Shown here in pieces: positions 37,587-58,748 of a DNA stretch of 64,000 nucleotides. The notes below the pieces were generated by a model, which was not told where the DNA came from, did no database searches, and saw only the letters and a program-made list of their open reading frames with translations. A program made the translations under genes and the position numbers. The stretch is from Paenibacillus terrigena DSM 21567. Lineage in GTDB: Bacteria > Bacillota > Bacilli > Paenibacillales > Paenibacillaceae. Positions within the stretch are counted from its first letter, which is position 1. Every line of letters starts with the position of its first letter. The stretch spans positions 1 to 64,000 of the forward strand of contig NZ_KB895430.1 of the NCBI RefSeq assembly GCF_000374845.1, in the 5' to 3' direction.

Positions 37587-38648
37587 CTATTTGCCATTTA
37601 CAATGACATAATCTTTATTCGTCATATGAAATTTGTCATTCATCCCTGATGTCATGTACACTTTCTTATCCTTCGTAATAAATATCGCTTCTGTATTCTC
37701 CATATTCTCTACGAATTTCATACCCTCTTCTTTGCCAAGTGCGAACAAGGTGGTGGACAAGGCATCCGCATCAATCGAATGATCCGTTACGATGGAGACG
37801 CTGTTCAGATCATTAACAACCGGATAACCTGTCTTCGTATCGAGGATATGATGGTATTGTACGCCGTTCTCGATAAAATAACGCTCATAGATCCCTGAGG
37901 TAACGACCGTCTGATTCTGAACACGCATGCTTCCAACCTGATTGCCTCGGCTATCGTTCGGATCTTGAATACCAATCGTCCAGTAGTCACTACCCGGCTT
38001 CACGCCAAGCGCAAAAATATTACCGCTCAAATCGATGATCGCATTCGGCATCTTGCGTTCTACGAGATAGTCAGCAATCCTATCCGCAGCATATCCCTTC
38101 GCAATGCCCCCTAGATCAAGCGCCATCCCTTCCTTCGTTAGCTTGATCGTCTTATTCTTCTCATCTAGTATCAAATTCTTGTAATCCACGTGCTTGAGCG
38201 CATCGTCAATTTCGCTCTGAGGCGGAACATGTGCGCCCTCATGATTAATGTTCCATAGGCTGACGAGGGTTCCGATGGCGACATCGAATCGACCTTTGGA
38301 AAGTTCTGAGTATTTTTGAGCCGTTTTCACAACATAAAATGTCTCATCCGATACTTTAATGGCTTTTTTGCCTGCATTGGCATTGACCTGATAGATATCG
38401 CTTGTCTTAATGGTACGGCTCATCTTATTCTCGATATCGTCAAGCATGGCCTTAATCTCTTTAAAGTTCTGATCTGTTACTTTTTTGTCGTATACCTTAA
38501 TGGTTACAACCGTATCAAATACGAAGTAGGTCTGTGATTTGGGGTTTATACTCTCTGTCGTATCCTTGGTTGTTGAGGTTCCGCCACAACCGGCAAGAGT
38601 CAACATACAGAGGACGAGCAGCATGATGATAGCTTTGGAACGAAGCAT
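37587..38648 (-). CDS. apbE: FAD:protein FMN transferase, lipoprotein (ApbE/FmnB)
   Basis: This enzyme attaches FMN covalently to threonine in D-x-x-[ST]-G-A-T-type motifs of exported proteins. A signal peptide ends in lipobox LAGC (Cys21), placing it outside the membrane. Family hallmarks are SKGRFDVAIGTLVSLWN, GMALDLGGIAKGYAADRI, DLSGNIFALG, HHILDTKTGYPV and DADALSTTLFALG. Length of 353 residues is normal. It is divergent from the eetA-like gene and is the expected modifier of PplA (57772-58659). In Listeria the equivalent is FmnB. AAGGGAGGTAACATT precedes the ATG. Confidence 0.93.
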   Translation of the reverse strand: MLRSKAIIMLLVLCMLTLAGCGGTSTTKDTTESINPKSQTYFVFDTVVTIKVYDKKVTDQNFKEIKAMLDDIENKMSRTIKTSDIYQVNANAGKKAIKVSDETFYVVKTAQKYSELSKGRFDVAIGTLVSLWNINHEGAHVPPQSEIDDALKHVDYKNLILDEKNKTIKLTKEGMALDLGGIAKGYAADRIADYLVERKMPNAIIDLSGNIFALGVKPGSDYWTIGIQDPNDSRGNQVGSMRVQNQTVVTSGIYERYFIENGVQYHHILDTKTGYPVVNDLNSVSIVTDHSIDADALSTTLFALGKEEGMKFVENMENTEAIFITKDKKVYMTSGMNDKFHMTNKDYVIVNGK

Positions 38649-38675
38649 AATGTTACCTCCCTTAAATTGTAGCCG

Positions 38676-38687
38676 AATATTATATCA
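38676..38687 (-). promoter_or_regulatory. Extended -10 of apbE promoter
   Basis: The minus strand reads TGATATAAT ending at 38679, an extended -10 box. No good -35 is seen at the expected distance, so an activator may be needed. It lies about 30 bases upstream of the apbE start. Confidence 0.4.
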
Positions 38688-38742
38688 CATATGATGCCAA
38701 CTTACCATTTCATCACGCATAGTTTAATTCAATTTTTAAGTA

Positions 38743-38748
38743 TATAAT
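38743..38748 (+). promoter_or_regulatory. -10 box of the eetA-like operon promoter
   Basis: TATAAT lies 31 bases before the eetA start. The -35 position, 17 bases upstream, is only TAGTTT, again suggesting dependence on an activator. An ATCACA half-site follows directly but the matching half is poor. Confidence 0.4.
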
Positions 38749-38779
38749 CACAACTAACTTACATGAGGAGGACTACACG

Positions 38780-39184
38780 ATGATGAAGCTTAGACGTGGA
38801 GATATTTTGCTCATCGGTATTGTCCTACTGTGTGCGATCATTTTCATCATCATAAGAGCATTTCCGAATGAAGTAAGTGACGAATCGCACAGCAAAATTG
38901 CCACGATTACAGTAGACGGAAAAATATACCGTACCGTTGAGCTTACGGCTGAACCACAAGAAATTAAAGTTCAGACCGAAGACGGCCACTACAACTTACT
39001 CAAGGTTCACGATCACGGCATTGAAATGATCGATGCAGATTGTCCAGACAAAGTCTGCCTCACCTTCGGATTTATTACGAATCCGTCGCAGACCATTGTC
39101 TGTCTCCCACATCGGGTATTAGTCGAGATCGAGAACACAAATCCAAAGGATCAAGGAGATGATCTCGATGCCGTCGTCAATTGA
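38780..39184 (+). CDS. eetA: NusG domain II protein, EetA-like
   Basis: A 134-residue membrane-anchored protein: one N-terminal helix (GDILLIGIVLLCAIIFIIIRA), then an extracytoplasmic NusG_II domain with DADCPDKVCLTFGFI and QTIVCLPHRVLVEI. The C-P-x-x-x-C pattern is usual for this family. Proteins of this type are the EetA component of the flavin-based electron transfer locus in Listeria and relatives, where they help pass electrons to surface flavoproteins. The 3' end overlaps the eetB-like gene. GAGGAGGACTACACG precedes the ATG. The name is by context as well as sequence. Confidence 0.82.
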   Translation: MMKLRRGDILLIGIVLLCAIIFIIIRAFPNEVSDESHSKIATITVDGKIYRTVELTAEPQEIKVQTEDGHYNLLKVHDHGIEMIDADCPDKVCLTFGFITNPSQTIVCLPHRVLVEIENTNPKDQGDDLDAVVN

Positions 39185-39719
39185 TACTTCCACAGCTATG
39201 CTCAAAAAAACGGTGATGATTGCAATCTTCGCCGCCGTCGCTGTCGTCTTAAGCATCATTGAATCCATGATTCCCTTGCCCTTCTCTGTTCCAGGTGCCA
39301 AGCTAGGCCTCGCAAATATTATGGTGCTGACTTGCCTCTATTTCTTAAACGGCAAAGACACGCTGATGCTCATTGTACTGAAGACGATTCTGACCGCATT
39401 TATATTCGGAACCTTCTCCAGCTTCCTGTTCAGCTTCTTCGGCGCCATCGTCAGCTTCGTGCTCATGTATGGCATGATGCGTCTGGGGCGAGATTTCTTC
39501 AGCTTGATCAGTATTAGTATCGTCGGTGGAATAGGTCATAATATTGGTCAACTTACGGCGGCGATGATCATCTTCAAGACATCGAAGATGTTCTACTATT
39601 TGCCGGCGCTGCTGCTCACAGGGGTTGTGACGGGGATCTTCATCGGTCTCGCCGTCAAATATTTGATCTCGGCACTGTCGAAGCTCACATTATTCCAAGG
39701 GTGGGCTGCACATGAGTAA
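39168..39719 (+). CDS. eetB: Gx transporter-family membrane protein, EetB-like
   Basis: A 183-residue integral membrane protein of the family long annotated as heptaprenyl diphosphate synthase component I and now as Gx transporter. It has about five helices and the motif FSVPGAKLGLANIMVL. The ATG at 39168 is chosen because AAGGAG lies nine bases upstream; the ATG at 39159 abuts that signal. In EET loci this is EetB. With the ECF ATPases and EcfT directly downstream it could be an S component, perhaps for a flavin or quinone precursor. That is inference. Confidence 0.8.
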   Translation: MPSSIDTSTAMLKKTVMIAIFAAVAVVLSIIESMIPLPFSVPGAKLGLANIMVLTCLYFLNGKDTLMLIVLKTILTAFIFGTFSSFLFSFFGAIVSFVLMYGMMRLGRDFFSLISISIVGGIGHNIGQLTAAMIIFKTSKMFYYLPALLLTGVVTGIFIGLAVKYLISALSKLTLFQGWAAHE

Positions 39720-40557
39720 CCCAATGATATTAATGGAAGGAGTCCATTTTTTCTATAGAGGAGCTGACAACAACACGCCCATTCTGCAAGATATCTCACT
39801 CTCGATTCATCCAGGAGAATGGGTATCGATTATTGGTGCGAATGGTTCAGGCAAATCCACCCTCGTCAAATTGTTCAATGGACTTTTACGTGCAACGCAA
39901 GGTCAAATCTCCATTGAAGGCACGCCGTTAACCAATGAGAACTTATATGACATTCGGCAGCAGATCGGATATGTGTTCCAGAATCCCGAGAATCAGTTCA
40001 TAGGCACCACGGTCATGGAAGACATGGTCTTCGGACTAGAGAATCTATCGCTCGATCATGCCGAGATGGAGCGCCGTGTGAATCACTATGCAGCAAAGCT
40101 CAATATTGTCTCTCTATTATCAAAGCATCCAGCGGAACTCTCAGGTGGACAGAAGCAGCGTGCTGCGCTAGCCGCAATCCTTGCCATGGAACCTCGCATT
40201 GTTATTTTCGACGAAGCGACTTCCATGCTCGATGAGCAATCCAGGCAAGATGTCATTCAGATCATCCGTGACATGCATCAGAGCGGTTCCTACACGATCA
40301 TTTCAATTACCCATGATGCTGACGAAATCGAGGCATCGGATCGGGTACTGGCACTCGCTGACGGGCAGATCATCGCAGATGCGCCTCCTTCCAGCATCAC
40401 ACGGCAACCTGATGTTATGAGGCGATGTAACTTGATTCCATCATTCTATATTCGATTAACACAGCAATTGAAAATGTCATACGATGTACCCGTCCACCAT
40501 CATGCAGATGAACATGGACTACTGGAGGAATTATGCCAATTGTATTCAATGAAGTAA
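39712..40557 (+). CDS. ecfA1: ECF transporter ATPase A1
   Basis: An ABC ATPase of the energy-coupling factor type. Walker A is GANGSGKST, the signature LSGGQKQR, Walker B RIVIFDEATS with the H-loop in SITHDADE. The Q-loop has the ECF-type FQNPENQFIG. Length of 281 residues is standard. Its ATG overlaps the eetB stop (ATGAGTAA). It forms a heterodimer with the next gene product. This second ECF module sits inside the electron-transfer operon, away from the usual ribosomal-protein ecf operon. Confidence 0.92.
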   Translation: MSNPMILMEGVHFFYRGADNNTPILQDISLSIHPGEWVSIIGANGSGKSTLVKLFNGLLRATQGQISIEGTPLTNENLYDIRQQIGYVFQNPENQFIGTTVMEDMVFGLENLSLDHAEMERRVNHYAAKLNIVSLLSKHPAELSGGQKQRAALAAILAMEPRIVIFDEATSMLDEQSRQDVIQIIRDMHQSGSYTIISITHDADEIEASDRVLALADGQIIADAPPSSITRQPDVMRRCNLIPSFYIRLTQQLKMSYDVPVHHHADEHGLLEELCQLYSMK

Positions 40558-41456
40558 GCCACGCTTACGGCGGCAATCCAGAACATCTGGCACTCGATCA
40601 TGTACGCTTTCATATTCAAGATGGGCAATTCGTTGGGATCATCGGTCCGACCGGCTCAGGGAAATCAACACTGCTACAGCATTTCAACGCCATCCTGCGT
40701 CCGACAGACGGCAAGGCACAGGTGCTGGATTTTCTAATCCTTCCAGGTGAAAAAATTCACGAAGTCAAACGTCTGCGGCAACGCGTCGGACTTGTCTTCC
40801 AGTTCCCGGAGCAGCAGCTTTTCGCCGACACCGTAGAGCATGATCTCTGCTATGGTCCGATGAATTTTGGTGCAACAGAAGCCGAAGCCAAGCTACTGGC
40901 CATCGCTGCACTTGAGCAAATCGGATTAAGTCCAGACCTGCTCTCCCGCAGTCCATTTCAGCTGAGCGGAGGGCAGATGCGCAAGGTAGCTATTGCTTCC
41001 GTGCTCGCGATGAACCCTGATGTACTTGTGCTGGATGAACCAACAGCGACGCTGGATCCAAGAAGCCGTGAAGAATTTATGACCCTGCTGCACACCTTAT
41101 GTAGGACCCAGAACAAGACGGTCATCGTCGTTACGCATCGGCTGGACGAGGTTCTGCCTTTTACGGACCACTTGCTCGTCATGCATGAAGGCAAGCTCGT
41201 CTTCGAAGGATCGAACATAGCGCTCTACGAACATGCCGAGAAGCTGCCAACTTGGCGAATGGCCATTCCCAAGCCGTTCCGAATCCTACAGGCTTGTGAG
41301 CAGATGACGAATAACCCGTTAGCGAACCATGTGCGGCAAGACGGCACAAGGGCGACATTCGCACCCTCATGGGTGGCAGAGCAAATCCATCTACTATTCC
41401 AGACATTGCAACGTGACGATAGCGGAGGTGTTCCATGCAGCAACGATTCATCCTAG
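40533..41456 (+). CDS. ecfA2: ECF transporter ATPase A2
   Basis: The partner ATPase of EcfA1. Walker A is GPTGSGKST, the Q-loop FQFPEQQLFA, the signature LSGGQMRK, Walker B VLVLDEPTATLD and the H-loop VTHRLDE. At 307 residues it is slightly longer than usual, with a C-terminal extension after the ABC domain. It overlaps ecfA1 by 25 bases and ecfT by 22, indicating tight coupling. GGAGGAATT precedes the ATG. Confidence 0.92.
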   Translation: MPIVFNEVSHAYGGNPEHLALDHVRFHIQDGQFVGIIGPTGSGKSTLLQHFNAILRPTDGKAQVLDFLILPGEKIHEVKRLRQRVGLVFQFPEQQLFADTVEHDLCYGPMNFGATEAEAKLLAIAALEQIGLSPDLLSRSPFQLSGGQMRKVAIASVLAMNPDVLVLDEPTATLDPRSREEFMTLLHTLCRTQNKTVIVVTHRLDEVLPFTDHLLVMHEGKLVFEGSNIALYEHAEKLPTWRMAIPKPFRILQACEQMTNNPLANHVRQDGTRATFAPSWVAEQIHLLFQTLQRDDSGGVPCSNDSS

Positions 41457-42226
41457 GCCGCGTCATCGCAACAGACTCATGGGTTCATAAGCTTGACCCG
41501 CGTGCCAAAATGACCTGCATGCTAATCTTTGCGGTCATTACTGTCCTGCTCCATTCTCTTGTTGACTTCGTCGCCGTCACGATCGTCTCCCAGCTGATTC
41601 TTCTCAGTACAAGAATCAAACTGACGATGTTCTGGAAGGCTGTGAGACCGCTTAGATATCTCATGCTATTTATCTTTCTATTCCAACTCTTCCTCGAGAA
41701 GGGTGGACATTTGTTACTCTCTTGGGGACCGATTCAGTTCTATTCCGAAGGGATCATCACCGCCGTGTTCACTGTCTGGCGGATGTCCTTACTCGTCACG
41801 TTCACTGCACTGCTTACATTTACGACAACACCGGCAATGCTGACCCAAGCGTTAGAGGACATGCTGAAGCCGCTCAAAATATTTCGCATTTCACCGCAAG
41901 CCATCGCACTGATGCTCAGCATTGCGCTTCGATTCATTCCGACCATCCTGGAGGAGACCGAGCGGATTGTCAAAGCACAAGCTTCTCGGGGAGCAGACCT
42001 GAAGGATCTCCCCTGGAAAGATAAAGCCAAAGCGATGATTGCACTGCTCGTTCCCGTTACTGTCTGTGCCTTTCGGCGTGCGGAAGAGCTCGTCAATTCA
42101 ATGGAAGCTCGGGGATACAAATTAGGAGAGCCCCGCTCCAAATTTTTCAGATTAACCTGGCATCGTCAAGACACCTATTTTTTACTCATTTTTATACTCA
42201 TCGGATTATTTGTCATTTGGCAATGA
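41435..42226 (+). CDS. ecfT: ECF transporter transmembrane component EcfT
   Basis: The scaffold subunit that links the ATPases to an S component. About five membrane helices and the two coupling motifs QASRGADLKDL and NSMEARGYKLG are visible. Length of 263 residues is normal. GGAGGTGTTCC precedes the ATG. In Listeria, ECF components are required for EET because they export or supply flavin for FMN transfer. Its presence here supports a dedicated module. The substrate-binding partner could be the EetB-like protein or an unlinked RibU. Confidence 0.9.
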   Translation: MQQRFILGRVIATDSWVHKLDPRAKMTCMLIFAVITVLLHSLVDFVAVTIVSQLILLSTRIKLTMFWKAVRPLRYLMLFIFLFQLFLEKGGHLLLSWGPIQFYSEGIITAVFTVWRMSLLVTFTALLTFTTTPAMLTQALEDMLKPLKIFRISPQAIALMLSIALRFIPTILEETERIVKAQASRGADLKDLPWKDKAKAMIALLVPVTVCAFRRAEELVNSMEARGYKLGEPRSKFFRLTWHRQDTYFLLIFILIGLFVIWQ

Positions 42227-42255
42227 TCGAAGAAAGTTTATGGAGGTTTTATCCT

Positions 42256-44214
42256 ATGGCAAGATATTTTCATGGTAAAGAAGTAGAGCTGCTCGCTCCT
42301 GCAGGTACGTTCGAAATATTCCAGACGGTCATTGAGACCAATTGTGATGCTGTTTATTTCGGTGGTCCAAGTCTCAATATGCGTATGATGCGCAAAGGCT
42401 ACAATCTGAATTATGAAGAAATCGAGCAAGCGATCTCTATCGCTCACTCCCTTGGCAAGAAAGTTTATATTACGCTTAACAATCTTATTAATGAACAGGA
42501 TATGGATGATGCAAGGCAGTATCTGCAATTTATTCATCAAGTGAAGCCTGATGCGATTATCGTACAGGATTTCGCGATCCTCTCACTCATCAAGGAGATG
42601 GGATTAGATATTAAGATCCACTCTTCCGTCATGATGAACGTTCACAATCTACCGATGATTGAGTTCCTTGCGGATATGGGTGTTACAAGGGTTGTCGCTT
42701 CTCGCGAGATGGATCTGCAGACGGCAAGGTATCTGCAAGCCAAATCCGGTATGGAATTCGAATACTTCGTACACGGCGATATGTGTACGGTGCATGGCGC
42801 CAACTGTCATATCAGCTCCATGATCTTCGGCATGAGCAGCAACCGCGGTCAATGTATGAAGCCATGCCGTTGGGAATATCGCGTGAAGAAGGACGGCAAC
42901 GTCTATCCGACAGAATACCCGCTTGCTGCAAAAGACATGAATTTATATGAGTATATTCCCGAGCTGATCGAATCCGGTATCACGTCATTCAAGATTGAAG
43001 GGCGTATGCGGGATAAAGAATTCGTAACGATGCTCATTAACAGCTACGGCGACGCCATTGATCGTTATATTGCAGATCCGACCGGGTACAACCGATCCCA
43101 AAACTCAAGTGAATTATTTGAGCATCGGAAGCGTGATTTCTCCACAGCGTATGCATTCGGTAATCCAGGGTTATCTTACATTAATCGACGTTATGAAGGA
43201 ACCGGTAAGTTCTACAGCACGGGCAAAGTCTTCAGTACACCAACACCCGAACGTGACATTCACGAAGATCGCCTGAATGAGATTCGAACATCCTTGTCTA
43301 CGGTACATCGGTCAGAAGCTGCTGTAAGAGAGCTCTCCGTACGTGTCAATAATATCGCGCAAGCGAAGGTCGCAATTGAAGAAGGCGTTCATCATATTTA
43401 CTTGGCTGGTGACGTCTTCGCACCCGATCGTCCATTCACACGTCAGGAGATTAAAGAATTGACGACAATGAAAGGATTATCTCAAATCTATCTCGCCTTG
43501 CCGCGCATGATGTCGGAGCTGCATTTCGAGCAATATGAACATCTATTGAAGTCAGCAGACCTTGGTATCGACGGCATGGTCGTGACGAATATCGGTGCGC
43601 TGCATCGCTTCCAGCAATTCGGTCTTAAGATGATTGGAGATTACAATTTGAACATCTCGAACAATCATGCCGCCATGTTCTATAACGAGCATGGACTGAA
43701 TCGATCCACCGCTTCCATCGAGCTTCCGCTCGAGCATTTCACAGAATTGGTCTCGCATACGACAGTCCCGATGGAGATCGTCGTTCACGGCTCACCTGTT
43801 GTGATGTTCTTGGAACTCGATTTATACGAGAATACAGAAGTCTTCCAATCCATAGCGGAAGAAGACAATAAATTCGTCGATAATCACCATCTTGTCCTCA
43901 TGACGGATAAAGGCGAGAACCCGGTATATCGGGACCAATTCGGACGGAATCATCTAACGACAGCCAAAGAACTCTGCTATCTTCCTATTTTACAAGATCT
44001 TATCCGAGCTGGCGTAGGGTATTTCCGCATCGAAGGCAGCACGTACACACCGGACCAATTGCGCACAATTCTAAAGACGTATCGCAAGGCGCTTGAGGCA
44101 CCTCAGCATTGCGCATCACTCTATGAACAGAGTTCACCGGTCTATGCCGGATATACGCTAGGCACATTATCCTTCGGTAAGGCCGTGCAAGAAGAAGCCG
44201 TGACAACCAAGTAA
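42256..44214 (+). CDS. U32-family protein with four-cysteine (Fe-S type) motif
   Basis: A 652-residue protein, start ATG at 42256 after TGGAGG. The N-terminal half is a U32 TIM barrel (ELLAPAGTFEIFQTVI, DAVYFGG, VMMNVHN, FVHGDMC). Four cysteines, C177, C184, C200 and C204 (CX6C, CX15C, CX3C), match the iron-sulfur ligands of U32 hydroxylases such as UbiU/UbiV. The C-terminal half again looks U32-like (IGDYNLNISNNHAAMF, PMEIVVHGSPVVMF) but lacks the cysteine set. U32 proteins include peptidases, RNA-modifying and oxygen-independent quinone hydroxylases. Lying between ecfT and a prenyltransferase, a quinone role is possible but unproven; RlhA-type RNA modification is the main alternative. Confidence 0.82.
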   Translation: MARYFHGKEVELLAPAGTFEIFQTVIETNCDAVYFGGPSLNMRMMRKGYNLNYEEIEQAISIAHSLGKKVYITLNNLINEQDMDDARQYLQFIHQVKPDAIIVQDFAILSLIKEMGLDIKIHSSVMMNVHNLPMIEFLADMGVTRVVASREMDLQTARYLQAKSGMEFEYFVHGDMCTVHGANCHISSMIFGMSSNRGQCMKPCRWEYRVKKDGNVYPTEYPLAAKDMNLYEYIPELIESGITSFKIEGRMRDKEFVTMLINSYGDAIDRYIADPTGYNRSQNSSELFEHRKRDFSTAYAFGNPGLSYINRRYEGTGKFYSTGKVFSTPTPERDIHEDRLNEIRTSLSTVHRSEAAVRELSVRVNNIAQAKVAIEEGVHHIYLAGDVFAPDRPFTRQEIKELTTMKGLSQIYLALPRMMSELHFEQYEHLLKSADLGIDGMVVTNIGALHRFQQFGLKMIGDYNLNISNNHAAMFYNEHGLNRSTASIELPLEHFTELVSHTTVPMEIVVHGSPVVMFLELDLYENTEVFQSIAEEDNKFVDNHHLVLMTDKGENPVYRDQFGRNHLTTAKELCYLPILQDLIRAGVGYFRIEGSTYTPDQLRTILKTYRKALEAPQHCASLYEQSSPVYAGYTLGTLSFGKAVQEEAVTTK

Positions 44215-44252
44215 GATCATGATCATGACCAATAGAAAGGAGCACGATCCTA

Positions 44253-45557
44253 ATGGACAATATGATCGGCGCAGACCAAATTCTACAGAAACGCAAAACG
44301 TTCATGTTCCCTTGCACAAGCCACTTCTATAAGCAGCCTCCTCAAATGGTACGAGGACATATGCAATATTTGTACGACGAGAAAGATACCCCCTATGTGG
44401 ACTTCTTCGCAGGGGTATCCGTGGTCGCTTGCGGCCATTGCAATGAGCATATTACACGAGAGACGATTAAGCAGGTTGAGACGCTCCAGCATACATCGAC
44501 CATCTATCTCACACAACCAATGGTGGATCTGGCAGAGCGGCTTGCGCGTATTCTGCCTGGGGATTTGAAGCGGACGTTCTTCTGCAACAGTGGTTCCGAG
44601 GCGAATGAAGGCGCCTTGCTCGCCGCTCGACTGCATACGAATAAGCGTGATTTCATTGCGCTAGATTTCGGACTTCATGGACGGACGTCATTAACGATGA
44701 GCGTTACCGGCATCCCGATGTGGCGTACGGATCCGTATCTTGAGAAGAACACGCACTTCATTCCTCGTCCGTTCGATGGGGGCATGACATTGGAAGAAGC
44801 CGCAGAGAAATCTCTTCAGGCTCTGCGCCAAGTTCTTGCTGAGAAGGGCGATTCCATCGCAGCGATGATCGTCGAGCCGATCCAAGGTAATGGCGGCATT
44901 ATCGTACCGGCAAAGCACTATTTCCAAGAGGTGCATGCACTGCTTAAGCAGCACAATGTCTTACTAATCGCAGATGAAATTCAAACCGGCTTTGGACGGA
45001 CGGGTGCTATGTTCGCGATGGAGCATTTCGGTGTCGTCCCTGACATCTTATCCATGGCGAAGGCGCTCGGCAATGGCACCCCGATCGGCTGCTTCTCGAC
45101 GACGGATGCGATCGCGAATTCCTTTAATCGACCTTCGGCTTCAACCTTCGGCGGTAATCCGGTCTCTTCCGTTACGGCAATGGCGGTGCTGGACTATATT
45201 GAACAAGAGAAGCTGGTGCGGCGTTCGCACAAGCTTGGTCAACTGCTGAAGGATGGTCTATTGGAGCTAAAACAAAAGTTCCATTTCATTACGGATGTGC
45301 GCGGCATGGGACTTATGGTTGGCATGGAGATCTTGGGGGATGCACCTCAGCGTGGCGCAGAGGCCGTTGATATGATGATTGAATGCATGAAGAACAGGGG
45401 CTTCATTATCGGAAAAAATGGTGTGAACCGCAACGTGCTGGCTTTCCAGCCGCCGCTCGTCATCCATGAATCCAACATTCGCAGAATGCTCTCAGCGCTC
45501 GAAGATGTCTGTACAGGAGGGCATGCATGGTTATACGAAGCGTCACAAGCAAAATAA
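44253..45557 (+). CDS. Class-III pyridoxal-phosphate aminotransferase
   Basis: A 434-residue aminotransferase. The PLP-binding core shows NSGSEANEGALLAAR, GLHGRTSLT, LLIADEIQTGFGRTG and the Schiff-base lysine in SMAKALGNGTPIG. It resembles AGXT2-like or ornithine-type enzymes. It lies 38 bases after the U32 gene and overlaps the prenyltransferase by 31 bases, so it is part of the electron-transfer operon. No aminotransferase is known in the standard EET gene set. A role in making or modifying a quinone or flavin headgroup is conceivable. The substrate is not readable. AAAGGAGCACG precedes the ATG. Confidence 0.85.
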   Translation: MDNMIGADQILQKRKTFMFPCTSHFYKQPPQMVRGHMQYLYDEKDTPYVDFFAGVSVVACGHCNEHITRETIKQVETLQHTSTIYLTQPMVDLAERLARILPGDLKRTFFCNSGSEANEGALLAARLHTNKRDFIALDFGLHGRTSLTMSVTGIPMWRTDPYLEKNTHFIPRPFDGGMTLEEAAEKSLQALRQVLAEKGDSIAAMIVEPIQGNGGIIVPAKHYFQEVHALLKQHNVLLIADEIQTGFGRTGAMFAMEHFGVVPDILSMAKALGNGTPIGCFSTTDAIANSFNRPSASTFGGNPVSSVTAMAVLDYIEQEKLVRRSHKLGQLLKDGLLELKQKFHFITDVRGMGLMVGMEILGDAPQRGAEAVDMMIECMKNRGFIIGKNGVNRNVLAFQPPLVIHESNIRRMLSALEDVCTGGHAWLYEASQAK

Positions 45558-46396
45558 GACTCTTCGGCGAGCTCGTCATGTTCTCGCATACCTTATTCTC
45601 GCTGCCATTCGCCATCATTTCCTTGCTGTGGGCGTCGAATGGCTGGCCTTCATGGTATGTGATAACCTGGTCGCTTATCGCCCTTGTCGCAGCCCGGAAT
45701 GGGGCGAATGCCTTTAATCGGCTTGCGGATTTGAAGTTCGATACCTTGAACCCCCGGACCGAATCGCGCCATATGCCGAAGAAACAGCTCATGCCAAGGG
45801 AAGTCATCCTGTTCGTTATTCTGAATTACGCGCTGTTCGTATTCGCAGCCGCCATGCTGAATCCACTCTGCTTCGCGTTATCGCCAGTCGCGATATTGCT
45901 AATTACAGCTTATTCGTATACAAAGCGGTTCACTTGGCTCTGCCACCTGTTTCTAGGTTTCACGATTGCGTCCGCGCCCATTGGCGCCTGGTTCGCCGTG
46001 ACAGGACAGTTCGCCTTTACACCCTTTATTCTGGGAACGATCGTCATGCTCTGGATTGCAGGCTTCGATATTATCTATGCGACGCAAGACATCGATTTTG
46101 ATCGCAAAAATGGCCTCTGGTCCGTACCGAGCATATTCGGGTTCGAAGATGCGCTCTACATTTCCCGTGCCCTGCATTTTATCATGGTGCTCTTGCTCTT
46201 CAGCCTTGCCTTCATTCGCGACCTCGGCTGGATCTATTTGCTCGGCATTTTCATTGCAACTCTGCTGCTGCTTACCGAGCATCGTATTATCAAACCGAGC
46301 AATCGTCACCTGATGAAGATTGCTTCCTATAAACTGAATCAGGTCATTAGTATGGTGATCTTATTCTGTACACTGCTAGATTTTATTCTGCTGTAG
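45527..46396 (+). CDS. dmkA: UbiA-family prenyltransferase, DmkA-like
   Basis: An integral membrane prenyltransferase of 289 residues and about eight helices. The two Mg-diphosphate motifs are NAFNRLADLKFD and YATQDIDFDRKN. The following SRHMPKKQL segment fits the 4-hydroxybenzoate polyprenyltransferase (UbiA) branch better than the MenA branch. In Listeria the EET locus has DmkA, a MenA-like enzyme making demethylmenaquinone. Here the same slot is filled by a UbiA-type enzyme, so the aromatic acceptor may differ; MqnP-like activity is another option. AGGAGGGCATGC precedes the ATG. It is the last gene of the operon. Confidence 0.82.
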   Translation: MVIRSVTSKIRLFGELVMFSHTLFSLPFAIISLLWASNGWPSWYVITWSLIALVAARNGANAFNRLADLKFDTLNPRTESRHMPKKQLMPREVILFVILNYALFVFAAAMLNPLCFALSPVAILLITAYSYTKRFTWLCHLFLGFTIASAPIGAWFAVTGQFAFTPFILGTIVMLWIAGFDIIYATQDIDFDRKNGLWSVPSIFGFEDALYISRALHFIMVLLLFSLAFIRDLGWIYLLGIFIATLLLLTEHRIIKPSNRHLMKIASYKLNQVISMVILFCTLLDFILL

Positions 46397-46400
46397 CATA

Positions 46401-46441
46401 AAAGGCTTCGATAGACCTTACTAGGGTCCATCGAAGCCTTT
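46401..46441. terminator. Bidirectional terminator after dmkA-like gene
   Basis: AAAGGCTTCGATAGACC pairs with GGTCCATCGAAGCCTTT around a short loop. It separates the plus-strand operon from the converging minus-strand solute-binding gene. Confidence 0.85.
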
Positions 46442-46447
46442 GAACAT

Positions 46448-47825
46448 TTACTTTTTATTCGCCTTCTCCTTCAATATCGCCGCATACTCATCCGTCATTT
46501 TACGCAAGAACGTATTCACATCTTCTTTGCCTTTGTTCTTGATCATTTCTGCGGTCTTATCACTGATAATATTGGATTCATAGTAGAAAATATCCGGGCC
46601 GTACGGGGAGAATACCGGCGCTGCTGCCGTCCCCTTGTATGCGACGTCGATATTATAGACGCCTACTTTATCTTCGCCTGCTAGATATTTGCGAATCTCT
46701 GGATCCTTCACCACCGGCGGAGCCCCACCAATCGCGATATTCTTCTGATTCTCTTCAGACGCAGCGAATTCTAACACTTTGAACGCCTCTTCAATATGTT
46801 TGCTTGCTGGGTTAATGGCAAGCGTAAGCGGAATATTGTTCGGCAATACACCTGGGAGATCGCTCCAGCTTGGGTAAGCGGACATGCCGAAGTTCAAGCC
46901 TTCCGTATGCGCATAGAGCTTCGCACTATTCACGAAGGATAGAATCATACCGACATTGCCCTTCTCAAAGCCGAAATTATCTTTCTGCGCTTCATCAGGC
47001 ACATTGCCCGGAATACTAACCACCCGTTGAATCAAATTGAAATACTTTGCAAATTTCGGATCCTTCTCGAATAGGATTTCTCCTGTTTCGGGATTCGTAC
47101 CGGAAGCGGATAGCTGGAGCATCGCTTGGGATAAGCCGCGTGCGGCAAGTCCAACATACTCGCCATCTCCATGCTTCCCTGCGATTTTCGTTGCCATATC
47201 CAACACTTCATCCCAGGTAGGCGTCTCGCTCGGATACTCAATGCCTAGCTTATCGAAGATATCCTTGTTATAGAATAGATTCACAACAACATCTTCCAGC
47301 GGCATGCCGAGCAATCGATTCTTCTGCTCCGGGTCACGCTGACGAATGGCTTCGATCGCGCCATCACGGAACTTGGTGAGGTCCACATTACTTGGCAATC
47401 AGATCATCTAATGGATAAGTCATTTCGAGATCGTGCAATGTTACGAATGGATCTGTAATCAACATAATATCTGGGGAGTTATTCGCAGCATTCGCTTCTT
47501 GTATTTTCTCAGCTGAAGCAAATGCACTGATATGTTCAATTTTGATATGAGGATACTTCTTCTCTAATGCATCCGCAAGACGGATTCTAACTTCTTCGCC
47601 GCCCCACGGCGTCATAAATTTTATCGTGACAGGTTCGTTCGATCCGGTCGTGGCCTCAGCATTGTTATCCGTTGCTGGCTCTGTCTTATTGTCATCTACT
47701 GCTGCCTCAGTAGTAGGTTTTGGTTCCTCTGTCGTCTTGGTTGAGTTGCCGCACGCCGATAGTAGAATGGACATGATGCACGTTGTGATTAGGAATAATG
47801 TCATCAATTTTCTAGTCTTCTTCAA
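46448..47825 (-). pseudogene. Frameshifted extracellular sugar-binding lipoprotein
   Basis: Two adjoining frames together make one full solute-binding protein of about 460 residues. The first (TTG start at 47825 after GGGAGG) has a lipobox LLSAC and ends ...YPLDDLIAK with a stop at 47388-47390. The second continues ...NVDLTKFRDGAIEAIRQRDPEQKN through GMPLEDVVVNLFYNKDIFDKLG to the end. At the junction the bases read AAGTAATGTGG. One added base (AAGTAxAATG) would restore K-Y-N-V-D-L. A single-base deletion or a sequence error explains this. No permease genes are adjacent besides the separate cluster upstream. Family 1 sugar ABC importers use such lipoproteins. Confidence 0.85.
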
Positions 47826-48013
47826 TCGATTCCCTCCCTTTTTTGTAAACCCTTTCATAAGTTATTACTCAAAAAAGCAAGAAATTGGGCCGCTAATCCC
47901 GTACATCTCCCCCTCCAACTATTACCTTTATTCGAAATTACTATATCAAAAACGGTGTGTACGTCGTGTGATTTTTATGTGTTTTTCCTGTGAATCTCAT
48001 CATGTCCGCAGCC

Positions 48014-48056
48014 AAAAAAAGACCGCCCATACAAGGGATTCCCTTGCAGGACAGCC
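48014..48056 (-). terminator. Terminator of the lpl-type ABC operon
   Basis: On the minus strand a long stem with G-U pairs (GGCTGTCCTGCAAGGG with CCCTTGTATGGGCGGTC) is followed by seven T. Confidence 0.85.
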
Positions 48057-48065
48057 TTTTCTCGC

Positions 48066-49772: not shown

Positions 49773-49892
49773 AAAGACTACGCCTCCATTATCATCTTAA
49801 TGGTAAATCATGACCCTGTCATCCTTGTGCTAATGCCAACGTGCGAATTCATTTGCGGCTGCCGCATCCCCCCTCTCAAGTCTGTAGCTGAC

Positions 49893-50792: not shown

Positions 50793-50818
50793 AAGGACTC
50801 CTCTCTCCTTCTTCGAGA

Positions 50819-51757: not shown

Positions 51758-51888
51758 CACGCAGCTCCTTCCGTCTAGACCTTGGTTTGCGGCTTTCGAA
51801 TATGACCCCATTGTAGAGGGCATTTCATGCATCAACAAGAAACAAGAATAAACCGATCTAACTTTTTTCACTTTGGCGTCAGCATGCG

Positions 51889-51914
51889 AAAAAAGCAGCG
51901 ATTCGCATCGCTGC
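51889..51914 (-). terminator. Terminator after the AraC-type regulator
   Basis: On the minus strand GCAGCGAT pairs with ATCGCTGC (loop GCGA) and is followed by six T, so the regulator and the permease operon are probably separate transcripts. Confidence 0.85.
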
Positions 51915-51943
51915 CCGCACTATTTTCTACGAATAAACCGTTT

Positions 51944-54181: not shown

Positions 54182-54262
54182 GTTCAAACCCCGCTTCGCA
54201 GTTTTTTAAGTTATTATATCGGATTGAATCTCACTTGTAACCCCTTTCATTTAGAAGCATGC

Positions 54263-54295
54263 AAAAAAGAGCTACCCATGAAAATGGATAACTCT
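54263..54295 (-). terminator. Terminator of the pplA-ndh2-hepS-dmkB operon
   Basis: On the minus strand AGAGTTATCCAT pairs with ATGGGTAGCTCT (loop TTTC) and runs into six T. It lies just after the dmkB stop. Confidence 0.88.
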
Positions 54296-54303
54296 CTCTA
54301 AGT

Positions 54304-55293
54304 TTAAAAATCCCGATCATTAAAATAATGCCAAATGGTCTCTAAATCCTGTGAAGCCTTAAATTCTCGCAGGTCTTCAATCAGCTTCCACGCTTCATGC
54401 ATATATCGATGGCTCAGTTCCTTCGCTTGATCCATGGCAGGACTGCTTCGAATCTGGTCGATCACGAATTGGAACTCTTCCACTGATGAGCCTTCATGCA
54501 ACGCTCGAATTTGATCCCCGAGCTGCTCTTCACGAAGTGCATAGATGACAGGAAGCGTCACTTGTCCGTTCATTAGATCCGCTCCTGCCGGCTTACCCAG
54601 CTTGCCTTCTGATTGCTCGAAATCGAGCAAATCATCCTTAATTTGAAAGGACATGCCTACCGCTCTGCCAAATGCGTATAACTTATTGGATACCGACTCG
54701 TCTGCTTCTGCCGTCCGTGCGCCAATCTGCAGGCAAGTTGCCATGAGAAGCGCTGTCTTATTCATCGTTTTCTCCAAATACGTATCTAGCCTAATATCAT
54801 AATCAAACCGCGTGTTCAGCTGTTGATACTCTCCTAGACAAAGCCTTGATGGTGCTGCCGAAATCAGATCCTGGAGAGCACTTCCTTGTTCTTCTGTATC
54901 CGAATACTCGAAGAGTGCTTCCACAATTCTAGCCATCATGTAGTTCGCAACATGGGTTGCTGTATAGTTATTCGTCTTCGTGTGGAGCGTCGGCTGCTGT
55001 CTTCTCCGTTCTGCACCGTCAATAATATCATCATGAATCAAGGATGCCGCATGCACGAATTCAGCTGCCGCAGCAAGACGAACCAGTCGCTTCGCTTCCG
55101 GTTCTCGCGTCCCGAATCGGCTTCCGACGATAACGAGCATGGGACGAAGACGCTTTCCCCCCGCTTGAATCAAATCGAGCACGCTGCGCTTTACAACCGA
55201 GAATACCGGCAAATCTCGATCGTAGCGAACCAGGTCAATCATCTCTTTATCAATGCGGTCCACATCGATGTGAAGGGCATCAGATAACTTCAT
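54304..55293 (-). CDS. dmkB: Polyprenyl diphosphate synthase (HepT/DmkB-like)
   Basis: A 329-residue trans-prenyltransferase that builds the isoprenoid tail of a quinone. The first aspartate-rich motif is LIHDDIIDGAERRR and the second FQIKDDLLDFE. GGKRLRPML near the N terminus binds diphosphate. The residue after the double arginine is Arg/Gln, not the usual Gly. It overlaps by 14 bases the HepS-like gene, so the two probably form a two-subunit synthase. In Listeria DmkB in the EET locus has this role. A housekeeping HepST pair is presumably elsewhere. Confidence 0.88.
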   Translation of the reverse strand: MKLSDALHIDVDRIDKEMIDLVRYDRDLPVFSVVKRSVLDLIQAGGKRLRPMLVIVGSRFGTREPEAKRLVRLAAAAEFVHAASLIHDDIIDGAERRRQQPTLHTKTNNYTATHVANYMMARIVEALFEYSDTEEQGSALQDLISAAPSRLCLGEYQQLNTRFDYDIRLDTYLEKTMNKTALLMATCLQIGARTAEADESVSNKLYAFGRAVGMSFQIKDDLLDFEQSEGKLGKPAGADLMNGQVTLPVIYALREEQLGDQIRALHEGSSVEEFQFVIDQIRSSPAMDQAKELSHRYMHEAWKLIEDLREFKASQDLETIWHYFNDRDF

Positions 55294-55726
55294 AAGCTGC
55301 CTTCGAGTACCGATACGTCACAAACTGATGTATTGCGGTAGGGAGTATAAATTCAGCCGGTTTTCCTTCGATTCTACGAATGTGTATCGTTTTGATAACA
55401 GGTGCGAGTGCATTGAGCAAATCCATAGCATGGTTCGCTAAGGCATATTCATAATAAATGCTCTGTAAATAATCGCCGTCAAGAATTTTACGTGTTAGTT
55501 CTAGTTTTTCTTCCTGTACATCACCATGGGACTGCAGGGACAATCGAAGTAATACATAGCATCCCAAAATACATTGCCGCCGCGCATCATCCATATCATA
55601 TTCATTCAGAAAATGAGCCATTTCTTTCACCCAGCGGGTGTTCACTTCAATCGCAATGCCAGCATCGGGTGCTAATTGCTGCATTAATTGTTCGAACGTC
55701 TGTGTCATTAATTGGCTTGTACTCAT
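55280..55726 (-). CDS. HepS-like heptaprenyl diphosphate synthase component 1 (short)
   Basis: A 148-residue helical protein. The segment RKILDGDYLQSIYYEYALANHAMDLLNAL resembles the conserved GDY...YY motif of HepS, the non-catalytic subunit of two-part heptaprenyl synthases. Classical HepS is about 250 residues, so this is a reduced form. Position directly before, and overlapping, a DmkB/HepT-like gene supports the assignment. AGGTGATGAATC precedes the ATG. If right, the EET quinone tail would be made by a dedicated heterodimer. The identity is moderately sure. Confidence 0.65.
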   Translation of the reverse strand: MSTSQLMTQTFEQLMQQLAPDAGIAIEVNTRWVKEMAHFLNEYDMDDARRQCILGCYVLLRLSLQSHGDVQEEKLELTRKILDGDYLQSIYYEYALANHAMDLLNALAPVIKTIHIRRIEGKPAEFILPTAIHQFVTYRYSKAAYEVI

Positions 55727-55757
55727 GATTCATCACCTGCTTTTCCTCTGAAAATAA

Positions 55758-55801
55758 GGAGGGCGTAATGCAGCAAGACCCGCAATACGCTCCTTTTTTT
55801 A
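55758..55801. terminator. Hairpin between ndh2 and hepS-like gene
   Basis: GGAGGGCGTAATGC and GCAATACGCTCC form an imperfect stem. The T run (seven) is on the plus strand; on the minus strand, in the ndh2 direction, only TTATTTTC follows, so termination there is likely partial and allows read-through to hepS-dmkB. Confidence 0.55.
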
Positions 55802-55841
55802 TGGCTGACAGGTACCCAGACCTATAACCTTAACCTCTAGT

Positions 55842-57689
55842 TTAATCTGCGTATAAATACCATTTCTTGACGAACGGAATTTTGCGCCAGATGCGTTTCA
55901 AATGCGGGTACAGGTAGTAGTCCATACCAAGCGTACTGCCGGAACCTCCGATTAACGCGACACCTGCGAACAAGTACCAGAGCATTTCGTAAGGAGCCAT
56001 ACCAGATGTCCAGATCATCAACCCCATTGCAACCGTACCAATGGATGCTACCGATGTGAACAGGCCTACGATGAGCATGAGACCGAAGATGATCTCTCCG
56101 CATACCATAGCAGCTTGGAATATCGATGCTAGTGCAGTATACCCGCCATCGCTCGTGTAGAAGAACATATCCATCGTTCCCTTGACCATGCTGCTAATAA
56201 AGTCAGGAACCGGCAGTGCCTCGACAGCCGTTTTTACGGCTTCCCCTGCTGCTGCTACAGCTTCAGTCGCACCCGAAGTACCGTCAACAGCTTTAGCTGG
56301 GATCAAGAAAATATTGCCCGGATCTTCCAAAATTTTCGGTAACTTCGCAAGACCTTCTTTTAACCACATCGCACCAACGAATATCCGAAGAGGTACGAGC
56401 CAGAAGTTCGGGGAACGCTTGGACAAGTGTCCGCCCACGAAGCTCCGACGATTTGGTACATGGAAGAACTCATGAAGCATATAGGAATAACATTTATTAA
56501 ATCCACACACTTGGAATAAATAGAACAAGTTAATGAAATGCTTGAAGAACATAGCCATGAAGCCTGTGAACATGAACATTTTCTTCGGTGTACCGATATT
56601 CGCTACCCCGTAGCGTCCACCGATACATACCATCGTCCCGTGGAATACCGGCTTGTATGGCTTCTGCTGAGCTTGTCCCGTAATCACAGCGTGAATGTTA
56701 TTCGCAATGAGTGGCGCTGCGTTCTCCGCATTCTCAACCATCTGTGGAACAGGACGTTCTTCGCCTTCTGGGATGTAGAAGATGTTATCGCCGACGACGT
56801 ATACGTTTTTGTGATCAATACTTTGCAAATGCTCGTTCGTTACGATCCGTTTTCTACCCTTTTGTTCTAGATCCAATTCGCCTACCAAATCCGAACCTTC
56901 GACACCCGCCGTCCAGATAACGGTGTTCGCTTCGAGGTCCCCGGATTCTCCGAGACTTACGGACGTTGGCGATACGCCTGTAATTTGCGTACCTGTGATG
57001 ACTTCGATGCCCAGTTTATCAAGACGCTGCTTTGCTTTCTGGATCAGCTTGTCTGGTAGAATCGGCAAGATTTTTGGTGCCATATCGGCAACAACAAGAC
57101 GTACTTCCGATTTATCCAGGTAGAACTCTTTGCACAATTGCTCCTTGTATTCACCAAGCTCACCGATCATCTCAATCCCCGTGAAGCCTGCACCTACAAC
57201 AACGAACGTCAACATACGTTTACGGACTGCTGGATCGGTTTCTTTCACAGCTCTGATGAACATATTTCGGATTTGTTCTCTTAGTGCAACAGCATCTTCA
57301 TAAGACCATAACGAGAATGCATGCTCCTCTGCACCTGGAATACCGAAGTACGACGGCTTACAGCCTGTACCGATAACTAAGTAATCGTAGTTATAGCTTT
57401 TGTTATGTTTCGAATGAAGTGTATTGGCATTAAAATCAATGTTGGCAATATCGTCGAGCACCACATCGACATTACGTCCGGCAAAAATCTTCTTCAGATC
57501 GACTTTGATCGAATCTTCCTCAACGCGTGCTGCTGCAACTTCGTGTAATTCGGTTAGGAGTGTATGGTATGGCTTGCGATCGATGAGTGTGATTTCAACG
57601 CCGGATCCCTTTTTGAACTTCTTCGCTAATTTCTTAGCCGTTAGTACGCCTCCGTAACCTCCACCAAGAACGATAATTTTCTTATTCAT
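55842..57689 (-). CDS. ndh2: Type II NADH dehydrogenase with DoxX-like membrane extension (EET Ndh2)
   Basis: A 615-residue protein; the ATG at 57689 follows GAGGTG. The N-terminal 400 residues are an NDH-2 flavoprotein: KIIVLGGGYGGVLTA (FAD), TFVVVGAGFTGIEMIGEL (NADH) and NVYVVGDN. The remaining 200 residues form a four-helix DoxX-like domain, an extension also found in the EET-specific Ndh2 of Listeria. Positive-inside reasoning puts the loop after the first helix outside. That loop contains DGTSGAT (D469-T475), which matches the target motif of ApbE FMN transferases. It would pass electrons from NADH to the dedicated quinone. It follows pplA in the same operon. Confidence 0.9.
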   Translation of the reverse strand: MNKKIIVLGGGYGGVLTAKKLAKKFKKGSGVEITLIDRKPYHTLLTELHEVAAARVEEDSIKVDLKKIFAGRNVDVVLDDIANIDFNANTLHSKHNKSYNYDYLVIGTGCKPSYFGIPGAEEHAFSLWSYEDAVALREQIRNMFIRAVKETDPAVRKRMLTFVVVGAGFTGIEMIGELGEYKEQLCKEFYLDKSEVRLVVADMAPKILPILPDKLIQKAKQRLDKLGIEVITGTQITGVSPTSVSLGESGDLEANTVIWTAGVEGSDLVGELDLEQKGRKRIVTNEHLQSIDHKNVYVVGDNIFYIPEGEERPVPQMVENAENAAPLIANNIHAVITGQAQQKPYKPVFHGTMVCIGGRYGVANIGTPKKMFMFTGFMAMFFKHFINLFYLFQVCGFNKCYSYMLHEFFHVPNRRSFVGGHLSKRSPNFWLVPLRIFVGAMWLKEGLAKLPKILEDPGNIFLIPAKAVDGTSGATEAVAAAGEAVKTAVEALPVPDFISSMVKGTMDMFFYTSDGGYTALASIFQAAMVCGEIIFGLMLIVGLFTSVASIGTVAMGLMIWTSGMAPYEMLWYLFAGVALIGGSGSTLGMDYYLYPHLKRIWRKIPFVKKWYLYAD

Positions 57690-57717
57690 GGGAGTCACCT
57701 CTTTATCCGTATTTTAC

Positions 57718-57747
57718 GAAGAAACCCCCGCTGTATACGCAGCAGGG
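57718..57747 (-). terminator. Weak terminator between pplA and ndh2
   Basis: On the minus strand CCCTGCTG pairs with CAGCGGGG around CGTATA, but the tail is only TTTCTTC. It probably reduces transcription past pplA, giving more PplA than Ndh2. Confidence 0.6.
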
Positions 57748-57771
57748 ATATCCTTCTGTGAACTTCGTTTA

Positions 57772-58659
57772 TTACTTTTTCGCACCTTCAAGTGCTTTAG
57801 TAACCAAATCAACAAATGGGCTCACAGTGATAGTTACACCTGATACTGCATCCGATTTACCTTCTCCATTTAGAGAAAATGCTGCTGGATCTTGCTTCTC
57901 GATCAAGAATTGCTCCGCTTTTTGAGCTTCTTCGTGCCATTCCCCAGCTGCGTTGCCTTTTTCTTTCATACCGTACTTACCATCTTTGGACAATTTCTTC
58001 TTCGTGTCGCCGCCGTCTTTCGCTTGTGCATCCCAGTTCGCTGCAACGATGTTACCGTTCAATACAGTAAGATCAACAGTATATTTAAAGCCGCCATCGT
58101 CAAAATTAGCTTCTTCTGCGTGATAAGCTCCGTCTTTATAAGGGCCTGGCTCAACAACGCCTGCTGCTAGTGCTTTTTCAGCAAGCTCTGCGAATGGGCT
58201 AACGGTGATCGTAACGCCAGTGATCGCATCCGTCTTACCTTCTGCATTGGTTGTAATTGCCTTAGGATCTTGCTTCTCGATCAAGAATTGCTCTGCTTTT
58301 TCAGCTTCTTCGTGCCATTCTCCTAATGCTTTACCTTTATCTTTCATGCCGTACTTGCCTTCTTTGGATAGAGCTTTCTTATCCGGGCCGCCAGCCTCGT
58401 TAATGCCTGTCCAGTTCGCGGACGTAATTTTGCCGCCTTCCACTTGCAATGTTACAGCGTATTTCCAGCCATCTGTGAACTCAGGTTGTTCAGCATAATA
58501 TGTTCCATCTGCGTAAGTGCCTTGCTCTGCAGTTGTTTTGTCAGTTGTAGTGGACTCTGTTGTTGTTTCTGGCTTCGTAGTTTCTGTTTTGCCACCGCAT
58601 CCTGCAAGAAGACCAGCGACAAGCATAGTTGTCAGAAATAATAGAGATATTTTTTTCAT
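57772..58659 (-). CDS. pplA: FMN-binding surface lipoprotein PplA
   Basis: A 295-residue lipoprotein, lipobox LLAGC with Cys21, then a Thr-rich spacer. Two tandem FMN-binding domains follow (about 50-165 and 172-292). Each has an YADGTYYAE/YKDGAYHAE start, an EWHEEAxKAEQFLIEKQDP helix and a flavinylation motif: DAITGVT (T150) and DAVSGVT (T276). The consensus for ApbE targets is D-x-x-[ST]-G-A-T; both sites here have Val for Ala. PplA is the terminal electron carrier of flavin-based EET in Listeria. It is first in the pplA-ndh2-hepS-dmkB operon. TAGGAGGGTCTATACC precedes the ATG. Confidence 0.92.
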   Translation of the reverse strand: MKKISLLFLTTMLVAGLLAGCGGKTETTKPETTTESTTTDKTTAEQGTYADGTYYAEQPEFTDGWKYAVTLQVEGGKITSANWTGINEAGGPDKKALSKEGKYGMKDKGKALGEWHEEAEKAEQFLIEKQDPKAITTNAEGKTDAITGVTITVSPFAELAEKALAAGVVEPGPYKDGAYHAEEANFDDGGFKYTVDLTVLNGNIVAANWDAQAKDGGDTKKKLSKDGKYGMKEKGNAAGEWHEEAQKAEQFLIEKQDPAAFSLNGEGKSDAVSGVTITVSPFVDLVTKALEGAKK

Positions 58660-58721
58660 GGTATAGACCCTCCTAGTATGGTTTCACATAATCAATTGTT
58701 TGTGAATTTTATCTCAAAGTA

Positions 58722-58730
58722 ATTCTATCA
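58722..58730 (-). promoter_or_regulatory. Extended -10 of pplA promoter
   Basis: The minus strand reads TGATAGAAT, an extended -10. It predicts transcription start near 58715, 56 bases before the pplA ATG. The -35 zone is occupied by an FNR/CRP-type box centred at -41.5. Confidence 0.6.
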
Positions 58731-58748
58731 GAATTTTAATCAGATTCA

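Follow-up and report, generated by a model that had tools for sequence, protein, structure and literature searches.

A three-gene cassette that appears to replace DmkA in the flavin-based extracellular electron transfer locus of Paenibacillus terrigena

INTRODUCTION

How is the quinone for flavin-based extracellular electron transfer (EET) made in a soil bacterium whose EET operon lacks DmkA, the prenyltransferase of the Listeria system? The question is raised by a locus between positions 37,587 and 58,659 of a 64,000-nucleotide stretch of Paenibacillus terrigena DSM 21567 (contig NZ_KB895430.1, positions 1 to 64,000; hereafter the window). A first-pass annotation had proposed a flavin-based EET locus here, and our analysis confirmed that the window carries one of the Listeria type, with genes for ApbE, EetA, EetB, the energy-coupling factor (ECF) subunits A1, A2 and T, HepT, HepS, an extended Ndh2 and a two-repeat PplA. 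All open reading frames (ORFs) named in that annotation were found, at the coordinates given below, and profile matches confirmed their families. It had also expected a dedicated quinone, which remains likely, but by a route other than the one it assumed.

EET in Paenibacillus with ecfA1, ecfA2 and ecfT has already been published (PMC10373932, available to us in part); the new part described here is the cassette that takes the place of DmkA. We found no prior report of such a cassette in the openly accessible literature that we searched, where most candidate papers stayed unopened. In Gram-positive EET the quinone step is still poorly understood, and the swap names three testable genes for it. 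The cassette suggests that the EET electron carrier is made in a new way and that it may itself be of a new kind.

RESULTS

The first-pass annotation had read the UbiA-superfamily prenyltransferase gene at 45527..46396 (+ strand; PF01040, 184 bits) as dmkA and made no mention of two genes of the same operon that lie between ecfT and this gene. These encode a U32-family protein of 652 residues (42256..44214, +; PF01136 in two stretches; GGAGG before the ATG) and a class III aminotransferase dependent on pyridoxal 5'-phosphate (PLP; 44253..45557, +; PF00202, 343 bits).

We searched 118 genomes, a sample drawn evenly from a larger group of the same family. EetB scored over cut-off in 44 of them, all with a window-type Ndh2, and the latter was found in 45; in the extra Ndh2 genome, G010, ndh2 is cut off by the end of a short contig, and neither the U32 protein nor DmkA was found in that genome. 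DmkA orthologues (at least 60% identity) occurred only in G016, G017, G051 and G071, and distant DmkA homologues of 21-31% identity in 33 further genomes. Orthologues of the U32 protein (E up to 1e-60) were present in 40 of the 118, exactly the remaining EetB carriers; among the 44 carriers, none has both proteins and none has neither. In the 73 genomes that lack both window-type Ndh2 and an EetB over cut-off, neither protein was found; G040, whose only EetB match is broken and sub-threshold, was counted as EetB-negative. This clean swap, with DmkA in four genomes, the cassette in 40 and both in none, suggests that DmkA and the cassette are equivalents.

We also fetched the stretches around eetB from 34 relatives, plus a second contig of G051 and the contig of G010. 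The trio of U32, aminotransferase and UbiA genes follows ecfT in 29 of the 34 relatives, and in four of the other five (G016, G017, G051 and G071) a true DmkA, of the MenA type, stands after ecfT. The fifth exception, G081, has no prenyltransferase ORF after ecfT and carries the trio on another contig (C88:74481-76397), a naturally occurring arrangement which hints that the module acts in trans. Comparative evidence argues strongly that the cassette replaces DmkA.

If the UbiA protein were DmkA itself, it would make demethylmenaquinone from 1,4-dihydroxy-2-naphthoate (DHNA) as in Listeria, a reading that agrees with its UbiA superfamily membership and its position within the EET operon. We consider this highly improbable, since the protein is not a DmkA orthologue, the best DmkA match in the genome (28%) lies elsewhere, and the closest named models are of the MqnP type, with which it groups. 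MenD is not over cut-off in the window's genome (59.8 of 244.2 bits), so there is no sign of a DHNA route. The UbiA protein scores 279 bits on TIGR01475 (cut-off 181) and 285 of the 430 bits required by the model MqnP_DT, which is a weak test because the copy in the genome's own mqn cluster also stays below the cut-off (344 of 430). When the window UbiA was compared with other proteins, cassette copies from other Bacilli scored 425-614 bits and five clostridial copies 297-311 bits; MqnPs scored 230-249 bits and E. coli UbiA 63 bits. In a tree, the three MqnPs sampled group apart with full support. We regard the enzyme as a probable sister of MqnP that stands in for DmkA.

Futalosine-pathway genes are present in the window's genome. 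One of its PF02621 genes has the below-cut-off MqnP-like gene and a PF00348 gene next to it; hepS, menG and ubiX of this mqn cluster were named by eye. In the family sample, the futalosine marker PF02621 is present in 117 of 118 genomes, and the only MenD over cut-off (508 bits) belongs to G017, a DmkA carrier and the sole genome without PF02621. The change from DmkA to a MqnP-like enzyme fits futalosine hosts, but the fit is incomplete. Since the other three DmkA carriers, G016, G051 and G071, have the futalosine marker, the host pathway alone does not account for the prenyltransferase swap, and we rejected the host menaquinone route as its simple explanation.

The N-terminal domain of the U32 protein carries the motif CX6CX15CX3C (C177, C184, C200 and C204), invariant in 22 aligned sequences. 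According to the part of PMC11574389 available to us, this is the essential motif of U32 oxidases, O2-independent hydroxylases that probably take their oxygen from prephenate, and the protein is a candidate hydroxylase of this kind. Its second half is U32-like without the cysteines and weakly matches the U32 domains of RlhA and UbiU. The nearest E. coli paralogues are the rRNA hydroxylase RlhA (160 bits), TrhP (131 bits) and UbiU (112 bits), and the protein is not closer to UbiU and UbiV than to other U32 proteins. The predicted structure has a mean pLDDT (predicted local distance difference test) of 74.5 and is poor at residues 174-227 around the motif; a structure search with it returned the U32 entry 5D88 as match 9 in a list led by other barrels, and a PDB sequence search with the U32 profile gave no match.

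Alignment of the aminotransferase to 1sf2 places Ala397 where γ-aminobutyrate (GABA) aminotransferase has the arginine of its NVLR position, which we take to be the usual substrate-binding arginine. This alanine and the PLP lysine, Lys270, are invariant in 112 of 112 aligned rows, many of which repeat the same species. A role as prephenate aminotransferase was dropped, as the accessible part of PMC9309667 gave no support for it in this class III enzyme.

A scan of named genomes for the U32 protein retained the best 80 of 110 relatives. The window protein is 81% identical to that of locus L129 of Paenibacillus selenitireducens, a species to which the window's genome is related. Of the best 80, 72 come from Paenibacillus, Brevibacillus, Saccharibacillus, Fontibacillus and relatives, and eetB lies in the fetched flanks of 68 of these, the exceptions being L136, L155, L159 and L188 (a 3.5-kb stretch). 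The other eight belong to Clostridium (five), Vallitalea, Mobilisporobacter and a 'Calditrichales' bin with a clostridial-looking locus. All eight clostridial-type genomes carry the U32 protein, the aminotransferase and one cassette-type UbiA each, with the UbiA outside the fetched U32-aminotransferase locus in three. MenD is over cut-off in none of the eight, and PF02621 exceeds its cut-off of 26 bits in one (G123, Clostridium sp. CS001, 40.9 bits), with a sub-threshold match in another (23.2 bits); true carriers, Bacilli of the same search, score 224-247 bits.

In these genomes the UbiA gene stands in runs that include substrate-binding protein, ATPase and permease genes (8/8), mqnL (7/8) and ubiX (5/8), and the six decarboxylases tested reach 612-657 bits on the menaquinone decarboxylase model (cut-off 496). 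Since the clostridial decarboxylases score on this model, a naphthoate is the preferred substrate, and we rejected a route based on 4-hydroxybenzoate and resembling that of ubiquinone. Vallitalea provides a second case that ties the module to EET: a single stretch (L251, 2795-11846) holds a divergent substrate-binding protein gene ∼5 kb off, followed in this order by genes for Ndh2, EetA, EetB, MqnL, UbiA, UbiX, the ATPase, the permease and an FMN-binding protein, so that the UbiA run lies inside an EET locus. Neither MenD nor PF02621 is over cut-off in this genome, and the run suggests that an aromatic precursor may be imported where it is not made. In Clostridium sp. CS001 (L204; 7734-9563 and 13284-14732), we also observed a second gene of the UbiD family, which runs divergently to the cassette and scores 347 bits against the MqnL cut-off of 496.

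A competing explanation would have the cassette make ordinary demethylmenaquinone by the futalosine branch, with the UbiA protein as an additional MqnP, methylation left out, and the U32 protein and aminotransferase serving another anaerobic need, such as RNA hydroxylation of the kind carried out by RlhA and TrhP. The sister relationship of the UbiA protein to MqnP, the six clostridial decarboxylases that reach the menaquinone decarboxylase model, and RlhA and TrhP as the nearest U32 paralogues are all in keeping with this. However, the U32 protein and aminotransferase accompany UbiA in eight of eight clostridial-type genomes even though they are unlinked in three, and the U32 protein occurs in 0 of the 73 family genomes without EET markers, while an RNA-modifying enzyme is not expected to track EET. 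We consider this explanation possible but rather unlikely.

Turning to the EET genes around the cassette, apbE/fmnB (37587..38648, -) encodes an FAD:protein FMN transferase and predicted lipoprotein (PF02424, 310 bits; lipobox LAGC) whose best PDB match, and best solved relative, is Listeria FmnB (7esa, 298 bits; next match 190 bits). On the + strand lie eetA (38780..39184), for a NusG_II protein anchored in the membrane by one N-terminal hydrophobic segment (PF07009, 106 bits), eetB (39159..39719), for the ECF S-type subunit (PF07456, 161 bits), the ATPase genes ecfA1 (39712..40557; TIGR04520, 308 bits, cut-off 315) and ecfA2 (40533..41456; TIGR04521, 319 bits, cut-off 330), and ecfT (41435..42226; PF02361, CbiQ/EcfT, 141 bits), for an FmnA-like transmembrane subunit. 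Most genes of this first operon overlap by 8-31 bases, and the U32 and aminotransferase genes follow at 29 and 38 bases. EetB is described as an FAD exporter in Listeria (PMC9973259, available in part). Near the locus, at 34312-36453, we observed a sensor kinase gene whose product has a 7TMR-DISM region and a sub-threshold sugar-binding-like match at its N terminus.

The second operon, on the - strand, includes pplA (57772..58659), for a lipoprotein with a lipobox, two FMN-binding repeats and two [ST]DA[IV][ST]GVTIT motifs; it matches PF04205 (FMN_bind) in one stretch at 39 bits, and its top model, NF041941, scores 68 bits, well under the cut-off of 325. Next comes ndh2 (55842..57698; PF07992, Pyr_redox_2), for a type II NADH dehydrogenase of 618 residues, of which residues 4-400 match NDH-2 structures and the C-terminal ∼220 form an extension with one hydrophobic segment over threshold (529-547). 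The protein aligns nearly full length at 61-97% in 43 of the 44 other carriers, the 44th being the truncated copy of G010. The extension of the window's Ndh2 contains a flavinylation-like SGAT at residue 475; a [ST]GA[ST] flavinylation motif was rejected as a feature of the extension, as only 16 of 80 rows have one. The hepS-like gene (55280..55726), for a small subunit, is present as annotated, though its Pfam match is weak (21.7 of 30 bits), and the family is backed by the predicted fold: the AlphaFold2 model (pLDDT 87.9) finds as its best PDB match 9kp1_A, the Bacillus subtilis heptaprenyl diphosphate synthase heterodimer (template modeling score 0.65 on the query; Foldseek E 3.5e-3), followed by 3aqb_A, the Micrococcus luteus hexaprenyl synthase, with no match at E <0.001. 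Finally, hepT/dmkB (54304..55293; PF00348, 204 bits; TIGR02748, 266 bits, cut-off 457) encodes a long-chain polyprenyl diphosphate synthase and is the second such copy of the genome, the other lying in the mqn cluster at C2:374518. The only other FMN-binding-domain match in the genome is a 141-residue ORF (L116 5195-6546; C2:495194-496545). Its neighbor resembles ApbE by eye, and the two may form a further flavinylation system that is unrelated to the first.

Many different outputs are described for ApbE systems (PMC8238504 and PMC9973259, both available in part), and the flavinylated protein could serve some extracytosolic reduction other than that of minerals or electrodes. The EET set is present, however, and reduction of ferrihydrite and magnetite is reported for a Paenibacillus that has a homologous operon (PMC10373932, available in part); we therefore regard this as improbable.

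The locus had been described as split in two by a sugar importer. We find instead two convergent operons separated by a gap in which insertions accumulate, and this layout is the family norm: the hepT-hepS-ndh2 block runs head-on to the eetB block on the same contig in 32 of the 34 fetched relatives, the exceptions being G051, with the blocks on two contigs, and G016, with pplA-ndh2 in the same direction. The gap ranges from <0.4 kb to 8.6 kb and varies in gene content by species. The importer does lie between the two blocks, but we rejected it as a component of the system: among the 34 fetched relatives it occupies the gap in only two, both of the window's genus, and the gap holds other genes elsewhere. 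A point counter to this rejection is that Paenibacillus faecalis (L136) has a related importer, with permeases at 49-53%, upstream of the trio. In the window's importer, one of the two sugar-binding-protein genes is broken into a pair of ORFs that lie in different frames (46448-47858), where the relative G026 has a single 491-residue ORF; the break may be a real lesion or an assembly error. The ECF set had been called unusually complete, yet ecfA1, ecfA2 and ecfT adjoin eetB in all 34 relatives and are in print for Paenibacillus (PMC10373932, seen in part). We found eetA in 32 of the 34 and apbE within the fetched stretch in 18.

TGTGA-N6-TCACA is the consensus of CRP/FNR-type operators. A region of this type precedes pplA (58701..58784, no strand assigned), with exact sites at 58749-58764 and 58769-58784 and one with a single mismatch at 58701-58716. 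The two exact sites lie 90-125 bp before pplA and are the only exact ones in the window. Sites with up to one mismatch number five in the window; shuffled sequences have 2.2 on average and 6 of 100 reach five, so this count is not in itself beyond chance. In 30 of the 34 stretches with a pplA, such a site lies in the 350 bp before the gene, compared to 0-9 of 18-35 stretches for each of eight other locus genes. Our literature searches on the consensus gave nothing useful. From these sites, pplA is likely to be under anaerobic control by an FNR-type protein.

DISCUSSION

We consider it probable that the cassette is a module that replaces DmkA in supplying a quinone for EET and keeps this quinone in a separate pool. 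The observations on which we build are the gene content, the exclusivity of DmkA and cassette, the co-occurrence of cassette and EET genes, the motifs and the clostridial gene runs. Ndh2 would oxidize NADH and reduce a quinone that is made for the EET system. Once reduced, this quinone would donate its electrons to the FMNs bound covalently to the lipoprotein PplA, from which they would reach outside acceptors. By analogy with the protein families and with work on Listeria, EetB together with ECF A1, A2 and T would export FAD and the lipoprotein ApbE would attach FMN. HepT and HepS would make the quinone chain, and the MqnP-like UbiA would most likely prenylate 1,4-dihydroxy-6-naphthoate, an acid of the futalosine pathway, or a closely related compound. 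The prenylated acid would be decarboxylated by housekeeping MqnL and UbiX (MqnL being presumed in the window's genome), and the U32 protein and aminotransferase would alter the ring or supply what the change needs, resulting in a quinone pool apart from respiratory menaquinone. We infer every reaction of this scheme, with its Fe-S cluster, substrate, product and step order, as well as the FNR-type control.

Several points weigh against our interpretation. Since RlhA and TrhP rank before UbiU, a quinone substrate for the U32 protein is drawn from gene context, and any role of the aminotransferase is conjectural. The UbiA tree is largely unresolved, including inside the cassette group, and its E. 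coli outgroup sits on a very long branch. In three Paenibacillus loci (L136, L155 and L159) the trio is present but the fetched flanks, the only part of these genomes searched for EET, hold no EET gene, and EET genes occur in the fetched stretches of only one of the eight clostridial-type genomes. One of these eight, Clostridium sp. CS001, has its weak futalosine-marker match over cut-off, and three DmkA carriers of the family have the futalosine marker. In addition, the pathway calls are based on single marker families, the scan of named genomes covers the best 80 of 110 U32 relatives, and the likeness to Listeria was drawn from protein families, the FmnB structure and published work.

A bolder version, which we put forward tentatively and consider doubtful, is that the product of the cassette is an isoprenoid quinone not yet described, a naphthoquinone carrying an added hydroxyl or amino group and reserved for EET, made by way of an O2-independent Fe-S hydroxylase of the U32 family and an unusual PLP enzyme. 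Clostridia that have no full-strength menaquinone-pathway marker would then import the aromatic precursor by a dedicated ABC transporter, and part of the supposedly quinone-free Bacillota would have a scavenged quinone. The readings considered here are not all mutually exclusive, and the likelihoods that we attach to them need not add up to certainty. A 2026 survey (PMC13386864, available to us in part) places the lineages without quinone pathways mostly in the Bacillota and Chloroflexota and remarks that other quinones may await discovery; a new quinone as the product would bear on this remark.

The locus resembles that of Listeria monocytogenes (fmnA, fmnB, pplA, ndh2, eetA, eetB, dmkA and dmkB) in its FMN transferase ApbE/FmnB, EetA, EetB and ECF-T, its extended Ndh2, its PplA with FMN-binding domains and its second, DmkB-like polyprenyl synthase HepT. 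It differs from it in that DmkA is replaced by the U32-aminotransferase-UbiA cassette, ecfA1 and ecfA2 lie inside the locus, the genes form two convergent operons, hepS is present and the host carries futalosine genes, presumably unlike Listeria. Because DmkA is absent, we classify the locus as a variant and not as a plain member of the Listeria type. The EET operon of Paenibacillus sp. Cedars is similar by its published description: as far as the part of PMC10373932 available to us goes, it has seven of the eight Listeria genes plus ecfA1-ecfA2-ecfT, its authors place dmkA elsewhere in the genome and name no replacement cassette, and iron and magnetite reduction was observed.

The cassette also resembles the MqnP/MqnL/MqnM end of the futalosine pathway, as its UbiA is related to MqnP and the clostridial runs add MqnL and often UbiX. 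Unlike in that pathway, the UbiA proteins group apart from the three sampled MqnPs, and the clostridial genomes have importer genes and yielded no full-strength MqnA or MqnD matches. With the U32 oxidases, the U32 protein shares the CX6CX15CX3C domain found in RlhA and TrhP and a length like that of RlhA (652 versus 653 residues). Unlike UbiU, TrhP and RlhA, it has a second half that is U32-like without the cysteines, and its gene adjoins that of an aminotransferase and is linked to a prenyltransferase.

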